From Haloterrigena turkmenica DSM 5511 (GTDB lineage: Archaea; Halobacteriota; Halobacteria; Halobacteriales; Natrialbaceae), in NCBI RefSeq assembly GCF_000025325.1, contig NC_013743.1:124001-188000 (forward strand): a DNA stretch of 64,000 nucleotides. The letters are read 5' to 3'. Each line of letters opens with the position of its first letter. The first letter of the stretch is position 1. The position numbers and the translations under genes are program-made. Of this stretch, positions 26,628-30,243 are shown piece by piece. The notes beneath the pieces were generated by a model, which had not been told where the DNA came from, did no database searches, and saw nothing but the letters and a program-made list of their open reading frames with translations.

Positions 26628-26825
26628 TTACGTGCTGGCCTCGTAGCCGGCCTCGTCGACCGCCTCGACGAGCGCCTGCGGGTCCGTATCGCCCTCGACG
26701 GTCGCTCGCGCCGCCTCTCGGTCGACGTTGACCGACTGCACGCCCTCGACGCCCTCGAGCGCGTCTTCGACGGTCTGTTCGCAGTGTTCGCAGGACATTC
26801 CTTCGACGGTGATCGTCTGGCTCAT
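26628..26825 (-). CDS. copZ: CopZ-like heavy-metal (copper) chaperone
   Basis: The 65-residue product is one HMA ferredoxin-like domain with the metal motif GMSCEHC (residues 9-15) and the usual V..V.VD..A..A.V.GD and AV.EAGYEA segments. Such proteins carry Cu(I) to CopA-type ATPases. It is divergent from the TRASH-domain regulator, with a shared 127-base control region that includes one copy of the candidate operator. Confidence 0.92.
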   Translation of the reverse strand: MSQTITVEGMSCEHCEQTVEDALEGVEGVQSVNVDREAARATVEGDTDPQALVEAVDEAGYEAST

Positions 26826-26889
26826 ACGAGGAGATAGGGACGCTCGGTCTTTGTGCGTTACTCCTTTCGATACTAGGTTGATCAGCGAT

Positions 26890-26907
26890 CCGAACTTTAG
26901 ATTCTGA
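26890..26907. promoter_or_regulatory. candidate metal-responsive operator, copy 1
   Basis: CCGAACTTTAGATTCTGA lies between the divergent copZ and TRASH-regulator genes, ending 46 bases before the regulator start. It matches the sequence upstream of copA apart from one added A and two substitutions. The core has the inverted ends GAA...TTC, as expected for a dimeric Lrp-type regulator. The role is inferred only from the two copies. Confidence 0.5.
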
Positions 26908-26952
26908 AGCGACGGTCGCCACGCTCTTTGCGGCTCCGCCCCAACAGACGGT

Positions 26953-27543
26953 ATGCGCGACCTCGACGAGACGGACATGGAGATTCTCCGGTTGCTGGGC
27001 GAGAACGCTCGGCGGCCGTTCAGCGAGATCGCCGACGAAGTCGACCTCTCCGGGCCCGCGGTTTCGGACCGCGTCCAGCGCCTCGAGGAGGCGGGCGTCA
27101 TCGAGCGGTTCACCCTCGACGTGGACCAGTCGCAGCTCCGCGCGGGCGTCCCGGTGTTCGTGCGGGTGACCGCTCCCCCGGGCGCGGTCGAGGACTGCCG
27201 AACGGCGTCCGCCGAGGCCGACGCCGTCGAGCACGTGTTCGTCACCGCTGACGGCGAGATCTGGTTCTACGCCCGCGCGGAGGTCCGGCGTGTCCGCGAG
27301 TGGCTCGAGGGGCTGTTCCCCGACGGAGCGGACTGCGAGTACGACGTGACGTTACTGGACGACGCCGAGTGGACGCCCTCGCTCGAGGGGACGCAGTTCG
27401 CGCTCACCTGCGCGGAGTGTGGCAACACCGTCGACAGCGAGGGGGAATCGACGCGAATCGACGGCGAGGTGTACCACTTCTGCTGCCCGTCCTGCTCGAG
27501 CCGGTTCGAAGGTCGATACGATCGACTCGAGGAGGGCGTCTGA
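26953..27543 (+). CDS. Lrp/AsnC regulator with C-terminal TRASH metal-sensing domain
   Basis: The 196-residue protein has an AsnC-type winged helix (LDETDMEILRLLGENARRPF, then SGPAVSDRVQRLEEAGVI), an alpha/beta middle region, and a C-terminal TRASH-type zinc-finger-like module with Cys153/Cys156 and the Cys177-Cys178/Cys181 cluster. In Halobacterium salinarum a regulator of this architecture controls a copper-exporting ATPase, which fits the copZ and copA neighbours here. It should sense Cu(I) through the cysteines and regulate copA, copZ and perhaps itself. copA follows after 84 bases in the same direction. Confidence 0.9.
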   Translation: MRDLDETDMEILRLLGENARRPFSEIADEVDLSGPAVSDRVQRLEEAGVIERFTLDVDQSQLRAGVPVFVRVTAPPGAVEDCRTASAEADAVEHVFVTADGEIWFYARAEVRRVREWLEGLFPDGADCEYDVTLLDDAEWTPSLEGTQFALTCAECGNTVDSEGESTRIDGEVYHFCCPSCSSRFEGRYDRLEEGV

Positions 27544-27568
27544 GTTTCGACTCGAAAGAAACTGCGCC

Positions 27569-27587
27569 CCGAAACTTTGGGTTCTGA
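27569..27587. promoter_or_regulatory. candidate metal-responsive operator, copy 2
   Basis: CCGAAACTTTGGGTTCTGA lies 41 bases before the copA start and closely matches the copy at 26890-26907. It contains the inverted repeat GAAAC-TTTG-GGTTC with one mismatch. The position, just upstream of where a leaderless gene's promoter would be, fits a site for an activator or repressor. Confidence 0.5.
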
Positions 27588-27627
27588 CCAGTAAAGCGGG
27601 TAAGTCACCACCGCCTAGTAGGTAGTA

Positions 27628-30243
27628 ATGAGTACCCGGACCGTACACCTGGATATCCGGGGCATGAGCTGTGCGAACTGTTCGCAGACGATCAGCGATG
27701 CCCTGGAATCCCTCGACGGCGTAAGCGAGGCGAGTATCAATTTCGCCACCGACGAGGGGACCGTCGAGTACGACCCCGCCGCCGTATCGCTCGCCGAGCT
27801 CTACGCAGCGATCGACGAGGCCGGCTACGAGGCCGACCGCGCGAGTCGGTCGATCGGGATCACGGACATGTCCTGTGCGAACTGCGCCGAGACCAACGAG
27901 TCGGCGCTCGAGTCCGTCCCCGGCGTCATCGAGGCGGAGGTCAACTACGCGACCGACGAGGCGTCCGTCGCGTACAACCCGGCCGACGCCTCACTCGGCG
28001 ATCTCTACGCAGCGATCGAGGACGCCGGCTACACGCCCGTTCGCGACGATGCGGACGGGAGCGACGAGTCGGATCGAGACCGTCGCGACGCGGCCCGCCA
28101 GGCCGAGATCCGCAAACAGCGCCGGCTGACGATCTTCGGCGCCGTGCTGTCGGCCCCGTTCCTGTTTTTCCTCGCCGATAAGTTCCTGCTCGGGGGTGCG
28201 TACGTCCCCGAGACGGTCTTCGGCGTTTCCTTCGGCTGGGTCGAATTCCTGCTCGCGACGCCCGTTTACGTCCTGCTGGGCCGCGAGTTCCTCGAGAACT
28301 CCTACACCGCGCTCGCGAGGAATCGGACCGCCAACATGGACGTGCTGATCGCGCTGGGCTCCTCGACGGCGTATCTCTACAGCCTCGTGGTCCTGCTGGG
28401 GCTACTGGCTGGCAATCTCTACTTCGACACCGCCGCGATGATCCTCGTGTTCATCACGCTGGGGAACTACCTCGAGGCCCGCTCGAAGGGTCAGGCCGGC
28501 GAGGCCTTACGGAAACTGCTCGAGATGGAAGCCGAGACGGCCACGCTGGTCGACGCGGACGGGAACGAGACCGAAGTGCCCCTCGAGGACGTCTCGGTCG
28601 GCGACCGGATGAAGGTCCGCCCGGGCGAGAAGGTTCCGACGGACGGCGTCGTCGTTGACGGCCAATCTGCGGTCGACGAGTCGATGGTGACCGGCGAGTC
28701 CGTCCCCGTCGAGAAGGGGTCGGGCGACGAGGTGATCGGCTCGACGATCAACGAGAACGGCGTGTTAGTCGTCGAGGCGACCAAGGTCGGCGAGGACACG
28801 GCCCTGCAGGGGATCGTCCAGACGGTCAAGGAGGCCCAATCGCGTCAGCCCGAGATCCAGAACCTCGCGGACCGCATCTCGGCGTACTTCGTCCCCGCGG
28901 TCATCCTCAATGCCCTGTTCTGGGGGCTGGTCTGGTTCCTCTTCCCCGAGGCGCTGGCCGGTCTCGTCGGCTGGGTGCCGGTGCTGGGGCTGGTCGGCGG
29001 CGGCCCGGCCGCCCTCTCGACGTTCGAGTTCGCCGTCGTCGTCTTCGCCTCCGCGGTGCTGATCGCCTGTCCCTGCGCGCTCGGGCTGGCGACCCCTGCG
29101 GCGACGATGGTCGGCTCCACGCTGGGCGCCCAGAACGGCGTCCTATTCAAGGGCGGTGACGTGCTCGAGCGCGCGAAGGACGTCGACACCGTCGTCTTCG
29201 ACAAGACCGGGACGCTGACGACCGGCGAGATGACCCTGACCGACGTTGTCGCCCTCGAGGACGAGGGCGAGGGAAAAGGCGCTCGAGCGGCCGCCGACGG
29301 CGGTGACGCGGCCGCAGATGGAGGTGCAGTGGCGACTCAATCGAGGCTCGACGAGAGCGAGGTGCTCCGGCTGGCCGCCAGCGCCGAGCGCGACAGCGAA
29401 CACCCGCTCGCCCAGGCCATCGTCGAGGGCGCCGAGGAGCGGGGCCTCGAACTGGTCGACGCCGAGGCGTTCGAGAACGTCCCCGGACAGGGCGTCCGGG
29501 CGACCGTCGACGGTCGCGAGGTGCTGGTCGGCAACCGGCGACTGCTCGAGAGCGAGGGCGTCGATCCTTCGCCCGCCGAAGGGGAGATGGAACGCCTCGA
29601 GGGCGAGGGCAAGACCGCCATGCTGGTCGCGGTCGACGGCGCGGTCGCGGGCGTGGTCGCCGACGCCGACACGGTGAAAGAGAGCTCGGCTGACGCCGTC
29701 GCCGACCTGCGCGAGCGCGGGCTGGACGTCATGCTGATCACCGGCGACAACGAGCGGACGGCCCGCGCGGTCGCCGAGCGGGTCGGGATCGATCCCGACA
29801 ACGTCCGCGCCGGCGTACTGCCCGAGGACAAGGCCGACGCCCTCGAGGACATCCAGTCGACGGGTCGCAAGGCGATGATGGTCGGCGACGGGGTCAACGA
29901 CGCGCCCGCGCTGGCGGTCGCCCACGTCGGCACCGCGATCGGCTCGGGGACCGACGTGGCCATCGAGGCCGCGGACGTGACGCTGATGCGCGACGATCCG
30001 CTCGACGTGGTGAAGGCGATCCGCATCTCCGAGGCCACGCTGGCGAAGATCAAGCAGAACCTCGTCTGGGCGCTGGGGTACAACACCGCGATGATCCCGC
30101 TGGCCTCGCTCGGGCTGCTACAGCCGGTGCTGGCGGCCGGCGCGATGGCGCTATCGTCGGTGTCCGTGCTCTCGAACAGCCTGCTGTTCCGGCGGTACAC
30201 GCCGGATCGCGACTACGAACTGCTCGGCCGGCTGCGACGCTAG
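27628..30243 (+). CDS. copA: copper-exporting P-type ATPase with two HMA domains
   Basis: The 871-residue P1B-1 ATPase pumps Cu(I) out of the cell. Two N-terminal HMA domains carry GMSCANC (Cys15, Cys18) and DMSCANC (Cys83, Cys86). The membrane metal site is CPC (Cys481-Pro482-Cys483), the phospho-acceptor is Asp525 in DKTGTLTTG, and [12 protein letters not shown] (the HP motif) and [12 protein letters not shown] are all present. The nucleotide domain holds a Gly/Ala/Asp-rich insertion (about residues 546-570). With copZ and the TRASH regulator it makes a full copper-efflux set. Confidence 0.97.

Follow-up and report, generated by a model that had tools for sequence, protein, structure and literature searches.

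Copper induction of the promoter of yvgX, an ATPase gene, requires the Lrp-TRASH regulator VNG1179C (CopR) in H. salinarum; the regulator's own transcript is unresponsive to copper (PMC3551603). Motifs for this regulator, both ChIP-derived and structure-based, have already been published (PMC4236453, PMC4177876), and we therefore claim no priority for the palindrome motif discussed below. The sign of CopR regulation is disputed: the protein has been described as an activator in H. salinarum and P. furiosus and as a repressor in T. onnurineus, and the word repressor is also used in PMC5605881. In P. furiosus, CopR sites are found directly upstream of the BRE (PMC7830388). This recalls archaeal Lrp activators, which use a site a few bp upstream of the BRE, with a centre-to-centre spacing of typically two or three turns (PMC2995911). 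In this study, we examined a window of 64,000 nucleotides (64 kb) from Haloterrigena turkmenica DSM 5511, in which two matched motifs had been noticed before a TRASH-domain regulator gene and before copA. From their conservation and placement, these motifs very probably serve as operators for CopR, the Lrp-TRASH copper regulator encoded between them, in the layout of archaeal Lrp activators, with copper-triggered activation as the likely mechanism and probable self-control.

The gene between the motifs (26953-27543, + strand) encodes a 196-aa regulator of the CopR type, identified by its domain matches. Its N-terminus is an Lrp/AsnC-type HTH (HTH_AsnC-type, E=9e-16, residues 4-45) and its C-terminus a TRASH domain (TRASH_HVO_1752_C, PF24273, E=1.9e-26, residues 150-196), in which Cys153, 156, 177, 178 and 181 are invariant in 28 homologues. 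Among the Pfam hits at E<=0.001 the regulator had no match to the Lrp RAM domain (AsnC_trans_reg); the middle region is present and diverged. Divergent from the regulator is copZ (26628-26825, - strand), encoding a 65-aa HMA metallochaperone (HMA Pfam E=1.3e-20; NCBIfam CopZ_AFE_1862 above cut-off), and downstream on the + strand is copA (27628-30243), encoding a Cu-type P1B ATPase of 871 aa with two N-terminal HMA domains (Pfam E1-E2 ATPase, hydrolase and 2x HMA; TIGR01511 Cu ATPase above cut-off). Three features of a CopR-type regulator are found here, namely the Lrp HTH, the cysteine-bearing TRASH domain and a cop cluster with Cu-ATPase and chaperone. The regulator gene adjoins copA, and usually copZ too, in the window and in most relatives, and its TRASH family is present in 294 of the 295 haloarchaeal genomes searched. 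In several other haloarchaea (L010, L011, L012, L014, L016), a second copA-like ATPase gene, only distantly related (~37% identical), comes after the divergent copZ in the same orientation, and the copZ promoter may drive both genes there.

Both motifs, at 26890-26907 and 27569-27587, had been reported correctly in sequence and position; they differ by one inserted base and two substitutions and, by coordinate difference, stand 46 and 41 bases before their genes. A joint pattern, CCGAAN{0,1}CTTTRGRTTCTGA, matches exactly two places in the 5,440,782-base genome, both before cop genes, and none in the reversed control, and no further copy of either 18/19-mer was found in the 64-kb window at <=3 mismatches. 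The first-pass annotation held that such a match at two promoters is unlikely by chance. The match does exceed chance, though by a modest margin: aligned locally, the two intergenic regions scored 14, with a dinucleotide-shuffle p of 0.004 for one strand and 0.015 for either strand. None of 99 relatives, five of the same genus among them, contains the literal 18/19-mer, which is thereby ruled out as the operator. Its absence is explained by wrong framing of the motif, since the conserved unit is a palindrome. Of the two, then, the literal motif fails the comparison with close relatives and the palindrome inside it passes. The GAA...TTC ends, which had been taken as inverted, are ruled out as the dyad: they read GAA-N7-TTC in one site and GAA-N8-TTC in the other, and the conserved dyad is shifted relative to them. 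The CCGAA prefix falls outside this dyad, and at the first motif the conserved palindrome begins at CTTT and extends beyond the motif's right end (CTTTAGA-T-TCTGAAG, 26895-26909).

This conserved unit is a palindrome of ~15 bp, CTTTSGAWTCSAAAG, visible upstream of the orthologous regulators and copA genes in relatives (Natrinema, Halobiforma, Halostella, Halorubrum and others). As a palindromic PWM, learned from relatives by palindrome-constrained EM with the window left out, it has the consensus CTTTGGAATCCAAAG, the haloarchaeal consensus being also given as CTTTCGAATCGAAAG. Training on one lineage group and scanning the other returned the same site positions. The sites, their conservation and their geometry are direct results of this analysis. 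The PWM finds four sites in the window, two in each target promoter, and at both copA and copZ their centres are at -77 and -46 from the start codon, 31 bp or three helical turns apart. The outer sites score 11.6 bits at copA and 10.7 bits at copZ, and the inner sites are weak in the window (4.9 and 7.2 bits).

The outer copZ site (26895-26909, unstranded; CTTTAGATTCTGAAG, centre 26902) is the first motif re-framed. It was found with a PWM trained on other lineages and, placed at -77 from the copZ ATG and -51 from the regulator ATG, is the best PWM site in both promoters. The second motif, once re-framed, is the inner copA site (27575-27589, + strand; CTTTGGGTTCTGACC, centre 27582, -46 from the copA ATG), the second-best PWM site, with CTTTG..TT conserved in 19 homologues. 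The matched motifs are accordingly not equivalent operators, one being the strong outer site of copZ and the other the weaker inner site of copA. Each has a partner that had been overlooked. The outer copA site (27544-27558, unstranded; GTTTCGACTCGAAAG, centre 27551, -77 from the copA ATG) is the best PWM site in its promoter, begins directly after the regulator stop codon and coincides with a block conserved in 19 homologues (TTTCGA.TC.AA); it holds the perfect palindrome TTTCGA-C-TCGAAA (27545-27557). In the inner copZ site (26864-26878, - strand; CTTTCGATACTAGGT, or ACCTAGTATCGAAAG on the copZ strand; centre 26871, PWM second-best), at -46 from the copZ ATG and -82 from the regulator ATG, strength is confined to the half-site TCGAAAG, which is conserved in 19 close homologues. 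We also noted that the outer copZ site, compared on the copZ strand with the copZ promoter of a member of the same genus (L127), reads CTTCAGAATCTAAAG in the window and CTTTGGAATCCGAAC in the relative: symmetric positions 5 and 11 have changed together (G/C to A/T), with the dyad kept.

Downstream of the inner sites, the 19 close homologues share a separate conserved block at -38 to -23 (AGTAAAGgGGGTAAG / cAGtAAcgcACAAAGA), which looks like the BRE and weak TATA of a leaderless mRNA. At copA this would correspond to a putative BRE (AGTAAAG) and weak TATA (GGTAAG) at 27590-27605 on the + strand (AgTAAAGgGGGTAAG, conserved in 19 homologues), whose spacing suggests a leaderless transcript. The conserved block beside the inner site reads AGTAAAG / cAGtAAc, and at both copA and copZ the inner site appears to abut this putative BRE.

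Conservation of the arrangement was counted in a dereplicated set of representatives with regulators <90% identical, the window excluded and a site counted at >=8 bits. In these loci, which share ancestry and are not independent events, and on part of which the PWM was trained, a site was found at -77±4 before copA in 27 of 29 (shuffled expectation 0.31), at -77±4 before copZ in 19 of 25 (0.33), at -46±4 before copZ in 14 of 25 and at -51±4 before the regulator in 25 of 38 (0.44). The cross-trained scan agrees with these counts, as does a separately fetched set (L143-L172), drawn partly from the same genomes. The blocks conserved among the 19 close homologues fall on both sites, with a variable spacer between them. 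Many Natrialbaceae-type relatives have a spacing of 30-32 bp, and others, judged by their second-best site, one of 36-37 bp; at copA in Halorubrum-type loci, the second-ranked site frequently falls at -40, which makes the spacing 37 bp. In each of the five same-genus genomes, the palindrome followed by AGTAAM at fixed spacing picked out the promoter of copA, of copZ or of both; this fixed-gap pattern misses the copZ promoter of the window because one extra base separates palindrome and AGTAAC. Control of copZ and copA through these sites is a reading well supported by conservation.

On its own, the palindrome is less discriminating. The pattern TTYNGANTCNRAA occurs at 12 places in the genome, ten of them with no recognised copper gene nearby, and at the scores of the window's own sites (10-11 bits) chance matches are plentiful. 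It is the paired geometry, not the lone palindrome, that marks out the cop promoters. Upstream of the other HMA/P-type ATPase genes of the genome no convincing CopR-type site was found; these site-less genes, for HMA-containing P-type ATPases and small HMA proteins (G000:C1:943806, 2275739, 3489831, 487855, 1746376 and 2273467), are probably under different regulation. Given these genes and the ten copper-gene-free palindromes, no wider CopR regulon was found in this genome, and the detectable regulon is the cop cluster. A separate observation concerns the perfect palindrome TTTCGAWTCGAAA, found ~37-41 bp before genes for MFS or EamA-like transporters, so named by sequence appearance, in several genomes of the family (L087 1500-1512, that is G000:C1:2259206-2259218, and L177, L178, L187, L188, L189, L192, L196, L200 and L201). 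Here it may be the operator of another regulator or a BRE-overlapping element. Of 101 genomes of the family, 85 contain the form TTTSGAWTCSAAA, as against 3 with a match to the reversed pattern.

It had further been proposed that the regulator controls itself together with copZ and copA. The last two targets are borne out by conserved operators; self-control is plausible and less firm. Relative to the regulator start, the copZ pair lies at -51/-82, and strong sites near -50 precede the regulator at six Natrialbaceae-type loci with no divergent copZ detected nearby (L008, L145, L150, L159, L162 and L164). These six loci weaken the reading that the site before the regulator serves copZ alone; at five others without copZ (L020, L027, L029, L030 and L031) no strong -50 site was found before the regulator. 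Since some relatives keep regulator-proximal sites without an adjacent copZ, autoregulation appears plausible in the window's family, not as a general rule. A bolder proposal, which we advance tentatively and with some doubt, is that paired CTTTSGAWTCSAAAG at -77/-46 is a haloarchaea-wide CopR operator code driving copper induction of copZ and copA, and that the same sites, shifted by about half a helical turn (-51/-82), give a different, probably repressive or copper-insensitive, output at the regulator. If true, one site pair would encode opposite outputs by helical phase.

Several other explanations of the sites deserve consideration. As the literature disagrees on the sign, it is possible, though in our view unlikely, that the regulator is a repressor, which would occupy -77/-46 and keep the core promoter blocked until copper releases it. 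The inner site abuts the putative BRE, a repressor role is reported for CopR of T. onnurineus, metals reduce the affinity of P. furiosus CopR in vitro, and the Halobacterium protein has been named a repressor of the ATPase (PMC5605881). Deletion of VNG1179C in H. salinarum, however, abolishes copper induction of the yvgX promoter, and the P. furiosus copR knockout loses copA induction; moreover, the TATA of copA and copZ is covered by no site, and weak TATA boxes would suit an activated promoter. That the sites are read by a different regulator which happens to control the cop cluster is improbable. The perfect TTTCGAWTCGAAA before MFS/EamA-like genes of the family means that another factor may read a similar palindrome, but the geometry at copA is -77/-46 and not -37, loci with an adjacent TRASH regulator almost all have the copA site, and a regulator of this same type is the known cop regulator of H. 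salinarum. The neighbouring TRASH regulator is by far the likeliest binder.

The two remaining readings dispense with a regulator site altogether. Haloarchaeal BREs resemble CGAAA-like halves, and the match could on that ground be a core promoter element (BRE/TATA) shared by two similar promoters; the sites are centred at -77/-46, upstream of the separate conserved -38 to -23 block, and this position contradicts the idea and leaves it very improbable. Chance resemblance of the 18/19-bp stretches might be argued from the modest pairwise p (0.004-0.015) and from the lack of conservation of the literal motif even within the genus, but it is hardly credible when the palindrome within each motif is conserved, always at set positions, in many genera of haloarchaea.

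We return, then, to operators of CopR that act in activation. What we infer from the arrangement is that the TRASH regulator binds these sites, that control depends on copper, that its sign is positive and that the regulator acts on its own gene. Each target promoter, copZ and copA, carries two semi-palindromic sites, ~CTTTSGAWTCSAAAG, centred at -77 and -46, and the three-turn spacing would bring the two dimers of a higher oligomer to the same side of the helix. Copper would load the five-cysteine TRASH domain of the bound regulator, which would then most likely help TBP/TFB onto the weak core promoters, switching on the chaperone and the efflux ATPase; through the copZ pair at -51/-82 the regulator would probably set its own level. 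The copper regulator of nearly all haloarchaea searched thereby gains a base-resolved conserved operator with fixed geometry, and this makes the activator-versus-repressor dispute over archaeal CopR testable by promoter mutations. The locus also illustrates how a short sequence match may reveal just one part of a larger symmetric arrangement.

The arrangement at copZ and copA fits, by analogy, the known layout of archaeal Lrp activators, with a semi-palindromic site just upstream of a presumed BRE and a further site three turns upstream. Ptr2, Ss-LrpB and LysM likewise have a dimer site just upstream of the BRE and further sites two or three turns upstream, but their effectors are amino acids or unknown and the TRASH domain is absent (PMC2995911). 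P. furiosus CopR shares the site next to the BRE and a regulator adjoining copA, and multiple footprints about one turn apart are a further listed likeness (PMC7830388). Its motif differs, being TTNNCAWWWTGNNAA there and TTTSGAWTCSAAA here, and the haloarchaeal EM consensus does not match this cop-motif; gene order differs too, copR and copA being divergent in P. furiosus, whereas here copZ and the regulator are divergent and copA lies downstream. By type of regulator and targets, the locus is likened to the VNG1179C regulon of H. salinarum, where a protein with the same Lrp-like HTH and C-terminal TRASH governs the copper response of a P1-type Cu ATPase and two HMA chaperones (PMC3551603, PMC4236453, PMC5605881); a difference is that the regulator transcript there is constant with copper. 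On the sequence evidence, the operator arrangement described here is real, conserved and functionally sensible, and belongs to this known kind of system.
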